This document shows positions 52,405-61,295 of a DNA stretch of 64,000 nucleotides, piece by piece. The notes under the pieces were generated by a model. It had not been told where the DNA came from and made no database searches. It saw only the letters and a list, made by a program, of their open reading frames with translations. The position numbers and the translations under genes are program-made. The stretch spans positions 434,001-498,000 of the forward strand of contig NZ_AP018725.1 of NCBI RefSeq assembly GCF_003967195.1, in the 5' to 3' direction. Numbering within the stretch: the first letter of the stretch is position 1; the number at the start of each line of letters is the position of its first letter. The DNA is from Sulfuriflexus mobilis (GTDB lineage: Bacteria > Pseudomonadota > Gammaproteobacteria > AKS1).

Positions 52405-53364
52405 TCAGGAAATCTTTTCGCCACTGGCCTGCAGGTCGGCGTGGTAAGAGGAACGCACCATGGGCCCGCTGGCGACATTATCAAAACCCAGGTCCCGCGC
52501 CAGTTCGCCGAGGGCATCAAACTCCTCGGGCGGCACGTAGCGTGCCACCGGCAGGTGGTAACGGCTCGGCTGCAGGTACTGGCCGAGGGTCAGCATGTTG
52601 ACGTCGTGTGCACGCAGGTCACGCATGACCTGCTCAACTTCGCTGATCTCTTCACCAAGGCCGAGCATGATGCCGGACTTGGTCGGCACCTCGGGGTAGG
52701 CTTGTTTGAAGCGTTGCAGCAGTTGCAGTGACCAGGCGTAATCGGAACCGGGGCGGGCCTGTTTATACAGGCGCGGCACGGTCTCGAGGTTATGGTTAAA
52801 CACGTCGGGCGGCGCCTGTTCGAGCAGGGCCAGTGCCACGTCCATGCGGCCGCGGAAATCGGGGACGAGGATTTCTATTTTGGTGTTTGCTGACTGCGTG
52901 CGAATGGCGTCAATACAACGGGTGAAGTGTTCGGCACCACCGTCGCGCAGGTCGTCGCGGTCCACTGAGGTGACGACAACATATTTTAGGCCCATGCGGG
53001 CGACGGTCTCGCCGAGCTTTTGCGGCTCGTCTTCATCGAGTGGCTTGGGGCGGCCGTGGGCGACATCGCAGAACGGGCAACGGCGGGTGCAGATATCGCC
53101 CATGATCATGAAGGTCGCCGTGCCGTGGGCGAAACACTCGCCGAGGTTCGGGCAGGCCGCCTCTTCACAGACCGTATGCAGTTGCTGCTCGCGCAGCATC
53201 GTTTTCAGGCGCTGCACCTCGGGGGCATTGTGCGAGCGACCACGGATCCACTTTGGCTTGCGCAGCGGGGTCACGGTCGGTTCGATCTTGATCGGGATGC
53301 GCGCGGTCTTTGATTCGCCCTTCAGGGGGTTACGCGTGCGGCTGGATTTTGGTTGTTCGCTCAT
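52405..53364 (-). CDS. lipA: lipoyl synthase
   Basis: 319 residues from ATG 53364. Radical-SAM enzyme that inserts two sulfur atoms into octanoyl groups on lipoyl domains. Both iron-sulfur sites are present: the auxiliary cluster [12 protein letters not shown] and the SAM cluster [10 protein letters not shown]; the C-terminal RSSYHADLQ supplies the conserved serine ligand. The start overlaps the lipB stop (ATGA). Confidence 0.97.
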
Positions 53365-54014
53365 AGCGGGCTTTGGTCGCAAAACTGGCGGGCATTGTAC
53401 CCCAGATCGGCGGCGAGCAGATCGCAGAGTCGATCTGCAATCTCGGCCTGCGGGGTCTGTACGCCCAGTTCACGCAGCATGGTCACCTCCATCCCCTTGT
53501 AACCACAGGGGTTAATGCGGGAGAAGGGCTCCAGCGCCATGTCGACGTTCAGACTCAGGCCGTGGTAACTGCGGCCGCGCTTCACACGCAGGCCGAGGGC
53601 GGCGATCTTTGCCCCCGCCACGTAGACGCCGGGGGCATCCGGTCGGGCGCTGGCCTCGATAGCATGTTCGGCGAGCAGGGCGATGACACTGCGTTCGAGG
53701 GCACCGACCAGGTCGCGCACACCAAGACCGGCGCGCGGCAGGTCGATGAGGGTATAGAGCACCAGCTGGCCGGGGCCGTGGTAGGTCACCTGGCCGCCGC
53801 GGTCGATATCGACCACCGGGATCTCGCCGGGGGCGAGCAGGTGGGCCGGGTCGCTATTGCGGCCCTGGGTAAACACCGGTGGGTGCTCCACCCGCCAGAA
53901 CTCGTCGGCACTGTGGGCGTCGCGCGCGGCGCTAAAACGGCTCATGGCCTCGTACACAGGCAGGTAGTCCTGTGTGCCGAGGTCGCGCACGATTATGGAG
54001 GCGGGCCGGGGCAT
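53361..54014 (-). CDS. lipB: octanoyl-[acyl-carrier-protein]:protein N-octanoyltransferase
   Basis: 217 residues. Transfers octanoate from ACP to lipoyl domains. Motifs: [14 protein letters not shown] near 73-86, [19 protein letters not shown] with the catalytic Lys near 130-148 and [13 protein letters not shown] with the catalytic Cys near 165-178. Coupled to lipA downstream and four bases after the DUF493 gene. Confidence 0.96.
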
Positions 54015-54018
54015 GGGA

Positions 54019-54291
54019 TCAGAGCAACATCAGTACCAGTTCGTGGGCGTGCAGCTCCTGGTAGAGGGCATCGAGCTGATCTTTGCTATGCGCCTCGAAG
54101 GTCACGGTCAGCGAGGTGAACTTGCCCTTGCCACTGTCGCGCGAACGCACCGCACCCTCGCCGAGGTTGTCGACGTGCCGGCGGACGATGGTGATCACGG
54201 CGGCCTCGAACTCGTCGCAGCGCCGGCCCATGACTTTGAGCGGGAACTGGCAGGGGAACTCAAACAGGGTTTCTTCAGTGTCAGTCGTCAT
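54019..54291 (-). CDS. DUF493-family protein (YbeD-like)
   Basis: 90 residues from ATG 54291. A small ferredoxin-like-fold protein with the family pattern EFPCQFPLKVMGRRCDEFE at the start, VTFEAHSKDQLDALYQEL near the end. In E. coli ybeD precedes lipB, as here. Proposed to have a regulatory ACT-like role; the precise function is unknown. Confidence 0.9.
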   Translation of the reverse strand: MTTDTEETLFEFPCQFPLKVMGRRCDEFEAAVITIVRRHVDNLGEGAVRSRDSGKGKFTSLTVTFEAHSKDQLDALYQELHAHELVLMLL

Positions 54292-54622
54292 AATGGGTAT
54301 TTTACTGGGGTTTGAAGGCAATGTGGGGATGAATTGGGCCGATTCAAAGGCCAAATCGACAGGATTTACTGGATGAAGAGGATAAATAAGGGTTTTCGCC
54401 GGTGCTAGAGCATGGTGCCAAGTATTTGCGGGCCGTATTGCAAGGAGTACTATCAGGACCAATGGCCATTGGGGAGCGCTGAATTCAGGGCAGCTGAAAA
54501 CAACCGGGATTCCTGTAGACAGCCGCTTGTTTGTCCATGCACAAATACAAAAACGGTTTTGTTATAAGGTTTTATGTTTCGTCTGCGCAGGCCTCTGACT
54601 TAGATATGTACGGGTTATTAAT
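54292..54622. other. intergenic region between lip genes and the channel-like gene
   Basis: About 330 bases between divergent genes. Around 54358-54390 it carries a 'acaggatttactggatgaag' stretch of a kind often repeated between genes in gammaproteobacteria. No gene, RNA or clear promoter was recognised. Confidence 0.4.
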
Positions 54623-55114: not shown

Positions 55115-55331
55115 ATCGCAGCAGCCATCGTATCTACGCTGGAAATAGCCACGATTACGGCGCCAGCAACAGGTTAAGCCCTTCTGTCATATCATGCTGC
55201 GCAGCCTGTTTATTCTGATGTAATCTGCATGGGTATCAGGCCCGTACTTTTGCATACGCGCGCTTGTAGTTGTTCTATAGTTGCGTGTATAGACCTGTAT
55301 AGCCAGCCAGTGACCCTGGCAGGAGGTGCGC

Positions 55332-55664
55332 ATGCAAACCCCATCTGATATCCGGCCGGTCCCGACACTTGATGAATACGGACTATTACGTAACCCTGAC
55401 ACCTGGGATGAATCGGTGGCATGGGGTATAGCCGCGCAACTCGGTATCCACGCATTGACCGATTCACACTGGAAGGTGATCTACGCCCTGCGTGAACACT
55501 ACGCCGAGTTTGGCGTGGCGCCGCCGATGAAAAATATTTGCCGTGCCGAAGGTAAACCGTGGTCATGGGTGCATGAGTTGTTTGATAGCTGCCTGAATGC
55601 CTGGCGTGTTGCCGGCCTGCCCAATCCAGGCGAGGAGGCAAAGTCCTACCTGAGCGATATGTAA
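55332..55664 (+). CDS. DsrC/TusE-family protein without the redox cysteines
   Basis: 110 residues from ATG 55332, with AGGAGG upstream. DsrC-fold features: DEYGLLRNPDTWDE, IHALTDSHWKVIYALREHY and the C-terminal RVAGLPNPGEE. In DsrC two cysteines flank the last segment (one before K-I-A-G-L-P, one at the C-terminus); here those places hold W and E, and the tail is extended to SYLSDM. It therefore cannot form the DsrC trisulfide and resembles the RspA type, proposed to be regulatory. Two other Cys (NICRAE, DSCLNA) are at different positions. Confidence 0.8.
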   Translation: MQTPSDIRPVPTLDEYGLLRNPDTWDESVAWGIAAQLGIHALTDSHWKVIYALREHYAEFGVAPPMKNICRAEGKPWSWVHELFDSCLNAWRVAGLPNPGEEAKSYLSDM

Positions 55665-56763: not shown

Positions 56764-57879
56764 ATGAAACAGGATCAGACATACCTTGCCCGCGACGACC
56801 TACAGTCGCTGCTTGATGCCCTGAAGGCGGGTGGCTTTCAATGCGTCGGACCACAGGTACGGGACGGCGTTATCCGCTATGCAGGCCTGGAGCAGGCCGC
56901 ACAATTGCCGTGGGGTGTCACGCAGAGTCAGGCACCGGGCGAATACCGTCTGCATGAGACGGATGACACTGACCGCTGTTTTGCCTGGGCCAATGGGCCA
57001 CAGGCCCTCAAACCCATCGTCTTTGCACCCCGTGAAACCCTCTGGCAAGCCACACAGTCCGCGGACGGTAGCCTGGGCTTTAGCGATGACGTGCCGGACG
57101 TTGCGCCGCTGGCCGTTATCGGCGTGCGTCCCTGCGATATCGCCGCCTTGTATATCCATGACCAGCATTTCCTGCAACAGGACTACCGTGACCCTTATTA
57201 CCTGCAACGGCGCCAGGACCTGTTGCTGGTCGCGGTGAACTGCACGCATCCGGCAGCGACCTGTTTTTGCGCCTCGACGGGTGATGGTCCGCGGGCCAGT
57301 TACGGCTACGACATTGCTTTGACGGAACTCGAGGCGGGTTACCTCGTTGAGGTCCACAGTGAACAGGGCCGGGCGATTTGCGCGCAGCTGCCGCTGCAGC
57401 CGGCAAGCCATGCCTACACACAGGCCGTCGAGGCGGCCATGCAGCAGGCCGCAGACAGTCAGCAGCGCCGGCTGCCGGCAGGTAACCTGAAGGGGCCCTT
57501 GTTCGCGAATCTCGAGCATCCGCACTGGGAAGAAGTCGCCGCTCGTTGCCTGAGTTGCGGTAACTGCACGGCTGTGTGCCCGACCTGTTTTTGTCACAGC
57601 GAGGCTGATGAGGTCCGCCTCGACGGCCAGCACACTGAGCATTACCGGCAGTGGGATTCGTGTTTTACCCAGGGCCACAGTTATATCCATGGCCTCACCG
57701 TGCGGCCGCAGACGACACAACGTTACCGGCAGTGGCTGACCCACAAGCTCGGCAGCTGGCATGATCAATATGGTCGTTCCGGTTGCACCGGCTGCGGGCG
57801 CTGCATCACCTGGTGCCCGGTCGGTATCGACCTCACCGAGGAGGCCGCAGTCATTTGCGGCGATTCGCCAGCGTCATGA
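56764..57879 (+). CDS. hydB: [NiFe] hydrogenase/sulfhydrogenase beta subunit (iron-sulfur protein)
   Basis: 371 residues. HydB-type electron-transfer subunit of group 3b hydrogenases. Two 4Fe-4S motifs lie near the C-terminus: CLSCGNCTAVCPTCFC (about 263-278) and CTGCGRCITWCPVG (about 340-353). The N-terminal two-thirds match the HydB family (PRETLWQ, VRPCDIAALYIHDQ). It passes electrons between the small subunit and the flavin subunit. First gene of a four-gene overlapping operon. Confidence 0.9.
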   Translation: MKQDQTYLARDDLQSLLDALKAGGFQCVGPQVRDGVIRYAGLEQAAQLPWGVTQSQAPGEYRLHETDDTDRCFAWANGPQALKPIVFAPRETLWQATQSADGSLGFSDDVPDVAPLAVIGVRPCDIAALYIHDQHFLQQDYRDPYYLQRRQDLLLVAVNCTHPAATCFCASTGDGPRASYGYDIALTELEAGYLVEVHSEQGRAICAQLPLQPASHAYTQAVEAAMQQAADSQQRRLPAGNLKGPLFANLEHPHWEEVAARCLSCGNCTAVCPTCFCHSEADEVRLDGQHTEHYRQWDSCFTQGHSYIHGLTVRPQTTQRYRQWLTHKLGSWHDQYGRSGCTGCGRCITWCPVGIDLTEEAAVICGDSPAS

Positions 57880-58709
57880 GCAATCCCTACCTGCCATGGG
57901 AGGCGGAAATTCTGGAGACCATCCAGGAATCGCCGAGCCTGTTTACCCTGCGTCTGCAACTCACCGATGCCGAGGCACAACAACGCTACAGTTTTGAGCC
58001 GGGGCAGTTCAACATGCTCTACCTGCATGGCGTCGGCGAGGTGCCGATCTCGATCGTCTCCGACCCGCGGGATGAAAGCGTTATCGATCACACCATCCGT
58101 GCCGTTGGCCGTGTCACCCGGGGACTGGCCCAACTCAAGGCCGGTGCGCGCATCGGCCTGCGTGGTCCTTATGGGCGTGGCTGGCCCATGCATGCAGCCG
58201 AAAAACGCGACGTCGTGGTGATCACGGGTGGCCTGGGTTGTGCGCCGGTGGTGTCGGTGATCAATTATGTCTCGCGCCGGCGCGAGCGCTTTGGTCATCT
58301 GAATATAGTCCAGGGCGTGAAACACTCGAGTGACTTTATCTGGCGTGAACGTTACGACGCGTGGCGCGCCTTGCCGGATACAAATGTGTTACTCGCCGCT
58401 GATGCCGGCGAGGCACTGTGGCCGTGGCACGTCGGGCATGTTACAGACCTGTTCGACCAGTTGCGCTTTGACCCGGCGCGGGTCTCGGTCATGATGTGTG
58501 GCCCGGAGGGCATGATGCACGTGGTGATCAAACATATGCTGGGTGCCGGGGTCGGCAAGTGCGATATGTGGCTGAGTATGGAGCGCAACATGCAGTGTGC
58601 CCTCGGTCACTGTGGCCACTGCCAGTACGGCGAAAAGTTCATCTGCCGCGATGGCCCGGTATTCTGTTATGAACAGATCGAAGAACTTTTCGAGGTCAGG
58701 GGGTTCTAG
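57876..58709 (+). CDS. hydG: hydrogenase gamma subunit (FAD/NAD(P)H and 2Fe-2S)
   Basis: 277 residues from ATG 57876, overlapping the hydB stop (ATGA). Ferredoxin-NADP-reductase fold: FAD site FEPGQFNMLYL, phosphate-binding GRVTRGLAQL, nucleotide site VVITGGLGCAPVVSVI and a C-terminal 2Fe-2S motif CALGHCGHCQYGEKFIC. It reduces NADP+ or NAD+ with electrons from hydrogen, or reverses this; sulfur reduction is also known for this group. Confidence 0.9.
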   Translation: MSNPYLPWEAEILETIQESPSLFTLRLQLTDAEAQQRYSFEPGQFNMLYLHGVGEVPISIVSDPRDESVIDHTIRAVGRVTRGLAQLKAGARIGLRGPYGRGWPMHAAEKRDVVVITGGLGCAPVVSVINYVSRRRERFGHLNIVQGVKHSSDFIWRERYDAWRALPDTNVLLAADAGEALWPWHVGHVTDLFDQLRFDPARVSVMMCGPEGMMHVVIKHMLGAGVGKCDMWLSMERNMQCALGHCGHCQYGEKFICRDGPVFCYEQIEELFEVRGF

Positions 58710-58711
58710 CC

Positions 58712-59500
58712 ATGGCGACGAAGCCGACAGTCTCCGTGCACAAGTTCAGTTCCTGCGACGGTTGCCAGCTGGCCTTCCTCAACATGGGTGAGTCACTGCT
58801 GGCCCTGACCGAGCTCGTTGACCTGAGCCACTTTCTCGAGGCGGGGCTGGATAATGAAGACGCCCGCGTCGATATCGCCTTTATCGAGGGCAGTGTCTCG
58901 ACACCCGATGACCAGGCACGCCTGGAATGTATTCGCGCCAACAGCGGTTACCTGGTCACTATTGGCGCCTGTGCCACCGCGGGGGGCATTCAGGCGTTGC
59001 GCAACATGGCCGATGCCAGTGCCTGGACGCAGGCCATTTATGCCAGCCCCGAATATATAAGGAGTCTTGATACGGCAACGCCGATCCGTGAACACGTCAA
59101 GGTGGACCTGGAGTTGTGGGGGTGCCCGGTGAACAGCCGTCAGTTGCTGGCGGCCATACGCGCGTTGCTGTTCGGTGTGGCTCCGGTGGAGGAGAACGAC
59201 AAGGTCTGTCTGGAATGCAAACGCCGCGATAATGTCTGCGTGCTGGTGGCGCATGGTACGCCCTGCATGGGGCCGGTGACACGCACCGGCTGTGGCGCCT
59301 TGTGCCCGGCCTTTGGTCGCGACTGCTATGCCTGCTACGGACCGGCGGAAAACAGTAACACCGAATCACTGGCGCGACGCTTCATCGGGCTTGGCCTGGC
59401 CGCAGACCAGGTGGCGCGACGCTTCCTCTCCATCAACAGTGCCGCGCCCGAATTCAATGCGACCGGCCGCCGTTGGCAGGAGGGCGAGCCGAATGACTGA
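58712..59500 (+). CDS. hydD: [NiFe] hydrogenase small (delta) subunit
   Basis: 262 residues, no Tat signal, hence cytoplasmic. The proximal cluster ligands are in FSSCDGCQLAF and GACATAGG, with GCPVN further on. The C-terminal part has many cysteines (CLECKRRDNVC, GTPCMGP, GCGALCPAFGRDCYACYGP), as in the HydD/HoxY-like subunits of group 3 enzymes that carry extra clusters. Two bases separate it from hydG. Confidence 0.92.
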   Translation: MATKPTVSVHKFSSCDGCQLAFLNMGESLLALTELVDLSHFLEAGLDNEDARVDIAFIEGSVSTPDDQARLECIRANSGYLVTIGACATAGGIQALRNMADASAWTQAIYASPEYIRSLDTATPIREHVKVDLELWGCPVNSRQLLAAIRALLFGVAPVEENDKVCLECKRRDNVCVLVAHGTPCMGPVTRTGCGALCPAFGRDCYACYGPAENSNTESLARRFIGLGLAADQVARRFLSINSAAPEFNATGRRWQEGEPND

Positions 59501-61295
59501 GCGTAAGGAGATCCGCATCAATGTGCCGGCACTGGCACGCGTCGAGGGCGAGGGCGCACTCGGGCTGGTGATCCGTGATGGCGCCATCCAGGACCTGCAA
59601 CTGCGTATCTACGAGCCGCCGCGTTACTTCGAAAAGTTTCTTGAGGGACGTGACTACACCGAGGTCTGCGATATCGTCGCGCGCATCTGCGGCATCTGCC
59701 CGGTCGCCTACCAGATGAGCGCGGTGCAGGCGCTGGAGGACATCGTCGGCTTCGAGGCACCGGCCTGGTTATCGGCACTACGCCGCGTGATGTACTGCGG
59801 CGAATGGATCCAGAGCCACAGCCTGCACATCCATATGTTGGCAGCGCCGGATTTCCTCGGTTTCAACAGCATCATCGAGATGGGCAAAACGTATCCTGAC
59901 GAGGTGCGCCGTGGTTTGATGTTACAGGGGCTGGGCAATGACCTCATCAGCCTGCTCGGCGCCCGTTCCGTGCACCCGATCGGTATTAAAGTCGGTGGCC
60001 TGCATCACCTGCCCAGTGCGCAGGCGCGGCAGGTGATGCGGGAAAGGCTCATCGCCGCCTTGCCGGAGGCCGAGGCGCTGTTGCGCTGGACGGCGAGCCT
60101 GGCGCTGCCCGACGATGAGCAGGACTTTGTCAGTGTCGCCCTGCGGCATGCGACAGACTACCCGATAGACGGTGGTCGATTGGTCTCCAGCGACGGCCTG
60201 GATATCCCTATCGAGGAATTTGAACAACATGTCGAGGAACAACACGTCCCGCACTCCACCGCCCTGCATGCCCTGTTGCACGGCCAGCCTTATCTCGTCG
60301 GCCCCCTGGCGCGGCTTAACCTGAACAGGGATCGGCTGCCGCCGATGTTGCGCGAACTCCTCGATGAGACGGGCATCTCGTTTCCGAGTCGCAACATGTT
60401 TCACAGCATTGTCGCCCGCGCCGCCGAGATATGGCTGGCCATCTTTGAGGCCGCACGCCTGCTCGAGGTGGAGTTCGATACGCAGCAGGCCTGTCCAACA
60501 CCTGCGCCGCGGGCCGGTACGGGTTTTGGTTGCACCGAGGCACCACGCGGTATCCTCTGGCATCGTTATGCCATGAATGCACGCGGGCAGGTCGGCGCCG
60601 CGCGTATCGTACCGCCGACCAGCCAGAACCAGTCGCGTATCGAGCAGGACCTGCACAATGCACTCAACCGCTTCGGCCTGGACAAGGCCGAAGAGGCCAT
60701 TCGCCTGCACGCTGAGATGGTGATCCGCAATTACGACCCGTGCATCTCCTGCGCAACACACTTTCTTAAACTGGATATGCAACGGGACAGTATCCAGGAA
60801 ACCTCAGCACCGCAGACAAGCTGGCAGCGAGTGGTGGTGCTGGGTATTGGCACGGCGCAGACGGCCGATGATGTCGGCCTGCGCCTGCTGGAGCAATTAC
60901 AACAGGATACTGTGCTGGCCCCCTATCTGGCTGACAGGTTGGCACTGTATACCACTGGCCAGCCCGCGCTGGACTGGCAGCGTTACATACGCTCGGGTGA
61001 CAGGGTCTTTGTTATCGATGCGTTGCTCGCCGATGTAATGCCTGACCGCTTGGTGGTGTTTGATGGTGCTGCGCTGGCGCCTGCGACCGGCACGTTATCC
61101 AGTCACGCCATCGGTTTGCGCGATGCCTTGCTGTTGTCGCCGTTGTGGGGGCAGGAGACCAATGCCGTCACCGTGCTGGGTATTCGTGTCGGCGTGGAGG
61201 GTGAACAGCCGCCTGATACCGACGAATTACAGCAGCTGGCCGAACAGGTTCGAGAGAGAGTGCTTACCGACCTCCTGCCCATGATAAAGGGGTAA
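59493..61295 (+). CDS. hydA: [NiFe] hydrogenase large (alpha) subunit fused to a maturation-protease-like domain
   Basis: 600 residues from ATG 59493, overlapping hydD. Nickel-iron site motifs: RICGIC at 64-69 and DPCISCATH at 415-423. A large subunit normally ends within a short peptide after this histidine, removed by a dedicated protease. Here about 177 residues follow. Residues 446-600 look like that M52-type protease: VVVLGIGTAQTADDVGL at the start (Asp 459/460), FVIDALLADV (Asp 509), SSHAIGLRDALLLS (His 538), VTVLGIRVG. This is an apparent fusion, in one intact frame. Confidence 0.9.
   Translation: MTERKEIRINVPALARVEGEGALGLVIRDGAIQDLQLRIYEPPRYFEKFLEGRDYTEVCDIVARICGICPVAYQMSAVQALEDIVGFEAPAWLSALRRVMYCGEWIQSHSLHIHMLAAPDFLGFNSIIEMGKTYPDEVRRGLMLQGLGNDLISLLGARSVHPIGIKVGGLHHLPSAQARQVMRERLIAALPEAEALLRWTASLALPDDEQDFVSVALRHATDYPIDGGRLVSSDGLDIPIEEFEQHVEEQHVPHSTALHALLHGQPYLVGPLARLNLNRDRLPPMLRELLDETGISFPSRNMFHSIVARAAEIWLAIFEAARLLEVEFDTQQACPTPAPRAGTGFGCTEAPRGILWHRYAMNARGQVGAARIVPPTSQNQSRIEQDLHNALNRFGLDKAEEAIRLHAEMVIRNYDPCISCATHFLKLDMQRDSIQETSAPQTSWQRVVVLGIGTAQTADDVGLRLLEQLQQDTVLAPYLADRLALYTTGQPALDWQRYIRSGDRVFVIDALLADVMPDRLVVFDGAALAPATGTLSSHAIGLRDALLLSPLWGQETNAVTVLGIRVGVEGEQPPDTDELQQLAEQVRERVLTDLLPMIKG

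Follow-up and report, generated by a model that had tools for sequence, protein, structure and literature searches.

A [NiFe]-hydrogenase large subunit predicted to carry its own maturation protease domain in Sulfuriflexus mobilis and other Gammaproteobacteria

M52 maturation proteases are as a rule separate polypeptides from the hydrogenase large subunits that they cut. In a 64,000-nucleotide stretch of the Sulfuriflexus mobilis genome (referred to here as the window), substrate and protease domain are encoded by a single gene. Is the protease-like extension a genuine M52 domain, how widespread is the arrangement, and how would such a chain mature?

Layout of the fused gene and its operon

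The gene is an open frame of 600 codons at 59493-61295 on the plus strand, and its translation contains no internal stop. The initial annotation, made from the sequence alone, had proposed that a hydA frame runs past its DPCISCATH motif into an M52-type domain with the protease motifs in order. This proposal holds: the 600-residue frame is intact, and its residues 448-592 match the NCBIfam family TIGR00072, 'hydrogenase maturation protease', at 6e-12. The open frame, the family matches to hydrogenase and protease, and the recurrence of the fusion confirm that the product joins the alpha subunit of a group-3b [NiFe]-hydrogenase, of the sulfhydrogenase type, to an M52 protease domain with putative activity. 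The hydrogenase itself is predicted to be cytosolic and NAD(P)-linked.

Residues 1-423 (59493-60761) would constitute the mature large subunit, with a predicted C-terminus at H423, the last residue of DPCISCATH (codon 60759-60761). The archaeal NCBIfam models ShyA (3.9e-74) and HydA (1.5e-73) span residues 7-427, although the sulfhydrogenase alpha score of 250 bits falls far short of the 700-880 bits that these archaeal models require for an equivalog. The nickel-binding cysteine pairs, R64-I-C66-G-I-C69 and D415-P-C417-I-S-C420-A-T-H423, are invariant in ten aligned fused proteins. Furthermore, the best PDB structural matches of the large-subunit model are the alpha chains of Pyrococcus furiosus SHI.

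H423 is followed by residues 424-432 (FLKLDMQRD, 60762-60788), a putative canonical cleavable peptide that resembles the 8-12 residue tails of unfused relatives. Next come a tether of low model confidence and poor conservation (residues 433-445, 60789-60827) and the M52-type domain, which starts at approximately residue 446 and extends to residue 600 (60828-61292). In other words, about 22 residues, consisting of an ordinary cleavable peptide and a poorly conserved stretch, separate H423 from the first protease strand. All ten fused forms in the alignment of this region retain the cleavage site and the old tail (H423-F-L-x-L), with F424, L425 and L427 unchanged. Identity in the stretch from H423 to the protease is 29-72% in close pairs.

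The fused hydA closes a hydB-hydG-hydD-hydA set on the plus strand. It is preceded by genes for a hydB-like iron-sulfur beta subunit (56764-57879; NCBIfam sulfhyd_HydB 2.2e-45, AsrA 2.9e-34), a hydG-like FAD/NAD(P)-binding gamma subunit with an approximate start (57870-58709; cytochrome-c3 hydrogenase subunit gamma 5e-60, ShyC 4.5e-50, HydG 4.4e-49) and a hydD-like delta, or small, subunit (58712-59500; sulfhyd_HydD 1.2e-49). The hydD and hydA frames overlap by 8 bases. The hydrogenase part thus has the large-subunit fold, the RxCGxC and DPCxxC motifs, the cleavage-site histidine, the short tail and the hydB-G-D-A gene order of P. furiosus HydA and ShyA and Thermococcus kodakarensis HyhL. Those archaeal alpha subunits stop after a tail of 8-12 residues, whereas the S. 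mobilis chain runs on for ~170 residues into the protease.

The protease domain and its candidate metal ligands

The protease domain is divergent at the sequence level. Its match to the Pfam HycI family is weak (17-20 bits, with the cut-off at 23), and Pfam alone would therefore overlook it. TIGR00072 scores 45.8 bits in the whole protein, which is 1.6 short of its cut-off of 47.45, and 49.3 bits in the genome search. In a phmmer search against PDB sequences, HybD was the only match (1cfz/2kml, 5.8e-06).

An AlphaFold model of the domain, built on an alignment of 103 homologues (20 fused and 83 free-standing), has a pLDDT of 88.4. Comparison of the predicted structure with HybD and HycI, which the initial annotation had suggested as a check, finds the protease fold: the nine best PDB matches are all HybD/HycI-type chains, with Escherichia coli HybD (1cfz) at the top at 4.7e-08. 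The matches include HybD (1cfz/2kml), T. kodakarensis HybD (5ija) and HycI (5zby/2e85). Foldseek TM-scores of the domain against HybD are moderate, at 0.65-0.69.

The metal ligands of HybD are Glu16, Asp62 and His93 (PMC2670836). The motifs of the fused domain, GIGTAQTADD (residues 451-460), FVIDALL (506-512) and SSHAIGLRD (536-544), provide a candidate for each of them. D509 (61017-61019) and H538 (61104-61106) are the obvious counterparts of Asp62 and His93 in the alignment, being Asp and His, respectively, in 100% of the 103 proteases. The counterpart of Glu16 is most likely D459 (60867-60869) rather than D460, a judgement made on a loop that has a one-residue gap relative to HybD. D459 is the likely ligand because this position is Asp in all 20 fused and all 83 free-standing proteases, while residue 460 varies: fused forms have D, Q, K, S, T, E or Y there, and free-standing ones mostly have R, Q or A. 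G453, D459, D509 and H538 are the sole invariant positions among the 103 rows. As a separate observation, the column of residue 460 (60870-60872) in 3b-linked proteases departs from the D-[DE]-G-x-G loop of the classical HybD/HycI enzymes.

The domain therefore shares with HybD, HycI and HupD (1cfz, 2kml, 2e85, 5ija) the fold, the three metal-ligand positions and the order of the motifs. It differs from them in being part of the same polypeptide as its substrate, and from HybD and HycI in having a loop of a GIGSPxxxDxxGW-like subtype with a variable residue 460.

Recurrence of the fusion and its unfused relatives

The initial annotation had called for a survey of other hydA genes for the extension, and the extension recurs. 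A search of 143 relatives and then of 369 Gammaproteobacteria found the fusion in ten genomes (S. mobilis, G000, together with G084, G311, G060, G139, G134, G080, G206, G308 and G360). A second search scanned one genome per GTDB species, and the 80 best named loci were examined. It added twelve fused, named metagenome-assembled genomes, all of them Gammaproteobacteria (L076-L084, L089, L090 and L091/L105, the last two being contigs of one assembly). The total is 22 gammaproteobacterial assemblies, and 'roughly 20 species' is a fair, inexact description because the two genome sets could partly coincide. Outside Gammaproteobacteria, neither the 399 Pseudomonadota genomes that were drawn nor the 80 best named loci yielded a fusion.

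In the remaining named loci, the large subunit ends with a tail of 8-12 residues past the motif, usually FLxLxVxR. In nearly all of these unfused loci, hydA is followed immediately by a protease frame, and the two often overlap by a few bases; the free-standing protease belongs to the same family as the fused domain. The fused domain is thus like the free-standing hydA-adjacent proteases of Gammaproteobacteria and Nitrospirota in family and in position; theirs is a separate gene with its own start, and its substrate carries a short tail. Four loci (L064, L066, L071 and L088) have hydA and the protease in one frame with a single in-frame stop between them and are one-mutation neighbours of the fusion. 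Since they differ from it by that one stop, fusion would need little beyond the loss of a stop codon.

Alignments with one or two stops were also seen in G114, G128, G152 and G263. Selenocysteine or stop read-through was considered for these genes and rejected, as each has an ordinary TGA 9 codons past the motif followed by the protease in the same frame; selenocysteine in the DPCxxC motif is not the cause of these alignments either.

How often did the fusion arise? The trees give a mixed answer. In HydA trees, the fused proteins fall into 2-3 groups, and both the quick and the careful tree need 3 changes. None of the bootstrap trees needs a single change. A tree constrained to a single fused clade is not rejected (AU p 0.81) and has a better score than the quick tree. 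The fusion may have arisen between one and three times.

A search of the open-licence literature found no description of a natural hydrogenase-protease fusion. Both components, the group-3b alpha subunit and the M52 protease, are of already known kinds, and the natural fusion appears to be the new element.

Predicted processing and its alternatives

The initial annotation had held that a separate, specific protease, if present and required, would speak against its reading. The S. mobilis genome, a single contig of 3.11 Mb rated 100% complete, contains no second M52 protease in a family search limited to M52 at E up to 1. A profile search finds one [NiFe] large subunit in the genome; the other match scores 14.8 bits, below the cut-off, and belongs to a 423-aa frame that we take to be NuoD. 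There is one complete hyp set, hypC-A-B-D-F-E, named from translations, with no protease gene beside it. Across the ten fused genomes of the first search, there are as many free-standing M52 proteases as there are non-3b hydrogenases that would be expected to depend on one. Five of them (S. mobilis and four others) have the fused hydrogenase only and no other M52 protease, and the other five have one extra M52 protease and one group-1 hydrogenase each. In four of these five, the extra protease shares a contig with the group-1 large subunit, and in G134 the two are on different contigs. In two genomes (contigs G206:C17 and G308:C5), the group-1 large subunit and two more divergent large-subunit-like matches, presumably HupV/HupK-like by our guess, lie near one free-standing protease.

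Pairwise dN/dS values of 0.12-0.52 show purifying selection on the fused domain. The ratio of dN in the protease to dN in HydA is 3.3 for fused and 2.7 for free-standing pairs; because the pairs are non-independent, this comparison is taken only as showing no clear sign of decay.

It is probable that the gene encodes its own nickel-gated protease, predicted to cut after H423 and probably in cis. While the precursor is still open, it would receive Fe(CN)2CO and Ni from HypCDEF and HypAB, whose genes lie elsewhere in the genome. The protease on its tether would then sense nickel through D459, D509 and H538 and cut after H423, most likely within its own chain. The new C-terminus would fold in and close the active site, and a fragment of ~177 residues comprising the old tail, the tether and the protease would be released, leaving a mature subunit of 423 residues. 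We infer the cleavage after H423, its nickel gating, its occurrence in cis rather than in trans, and the release of the fragment. Nickel gating is drawn from HybD and HycI, for which nickel is established as the recognition signal of the protease (PMC2670836). The initial annotation had offered self-processing and release of the protease upon nickel loading as two options; the best-supported reading is that they would be one event viewed from its two products.

Could the domain reach its own cleavage site? The connection of ~22 residues is in principle long enough to bring the site to the domain's own ligands. A full-length AlphaFold model, built from 10 rows, has a pLDDT of 72 that falls under 50 over residues 415-442, and the two domains are not docked confidently. 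Because this model leaves residues 415-442 undefined, cleavage in cis is something we infer rather than read from the structure. In Salmonella Hyd-5, the protease and the large subunit form a stable complex that depends on the cofactor pathway and does not need the C-terminal tail (PMC5299533), which fits the fused arrangement. The Hyd-5 HydB-HyaD complex likewise joins subunit and protease and needs the cofactor pathway (PMC5299533), but it is made of two gene products, whereas S. mobilis has a natural fusion.

The same binding can be read differently. An active fused protease could work in trans, with the domain of one precursor, or the freed fragment, cutting other precursors as in a two-gene system. 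Homologues made from their own gene necessarily act in trans, the fragment set free would amount to a whole HybD-like protein, and HyaD/HydD hold the Salmonella HydB large subunit stably given the cofactor pathway and irrespective of the C-terminal tail (PMC5299533). However, the tether would give a very high local concentration in cis, and the initial cut would still fall to an uncleaved precursor. We regard cleavage in trans as rather unlikely.

The domain could instead be a retained chaperone or lid that is no longer a protease, with the subunit left uncut or cut by another enzyme. Its divergence and its score below the Pfam cut-off are compatible with this, as are the weak or absent matches of the fused domains in L037 and L084. 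However, the metal-binding triad is 100% conserved in 20 fused rows, the cleavage site and tail are conserved, five genomes are without another M52 protease, and substitution rates are near those of free-standing proteases. These results make a retired protease highly improbable.

About as improbable is the production of two proteins, in which an internal start in the tether would give a free protease besides the fused chain. In the S. mobilis gene, codon 429 is an in-frame ATG, and three GTG codons occur where the domain starts. Candidate starts with ribosome-site-like energies of -6 kcal/mol or lower are present in three further fused genes. However, no conserved internal start or ribosome-binding site for a separate protease was found among the fused genes: five of them lack any start codon from H423 to the first glycine motif, and the median best ribosome-site energy is 0.0 kcal/mol in fused genes versus -2.75 in unfused ones. 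An assembly or sequencing artefact that erased a stop codon, conceivable since unfused relatives with a single in-frame stop exist, is ruled out for practical purposes by recurrence in 22 assemblies with tethers that differ in length and sequence, one of the genomes being a single contig.

Under the preferred reading, cleavage of the chain by its own nickel-gated protease, a further step may be considered. The fusion may well act as a single-turnover, intramolecular nickel checkpoint, in which each protease cuts only its own chain, proofreading is stoichiometric, cross-reaction with other hydrogenases is avoided, and the arrangement has become fixed in several gammaproteobacterial lineages; we lean slightly towards this model.

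The way in which maturation proteases recognise large subunits loaded with nickel is, to our knowledge, still unresolved. As of 2009, there was no structure of a complex between a protease and a large subunit from any organism (PMC2670836). The natural fusion provides a 1:1 pair of substrate and protease in one chain, and a protease-dead or nickel-starved precursor could yield a trapped recognition complex. We know of no structure of such a complex since 2009. The fused chain also makes the kinetics of cis and trans cleavage measurable. Furthermore, heterologous production of group-3b hydrogenases may become simpler, as there would be no matching protease to supply. For annotation, a protease gene that is seemingly absent from some genomes is not absent.

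The distribution and surroundings of the operon add some minor observations. The operon is patchy within the genus, because none of the three congeneric genomes (G001, G002 and G003) has any match to the hydrogenase. A lipoyl synthase gene, an octanoyltransferase gene and a YbeD-like (DUF493) gene, identified from reading only, lie in their usual order at 52405-54462 on the minus strand of the window. A DsrC/TusE-like gene (Pfam DsrC 5.4e-18) lies at 55326-55664 on the plus strand, about 1.1 kb 5' of the hydrogenase operon. A second DsrC/TusE-like gene (1.3e-29) lies at about 1.619 Mb of the S. mobilis contig (G000:C1; L045:7485-7829, minus strand), and the hyp cluster starts ~1.3 kb away from it. 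The presence of one such gene near the hydrogenase operon and another near the hyp cluster possibly reflects a sulfur-linked theme, or chance.
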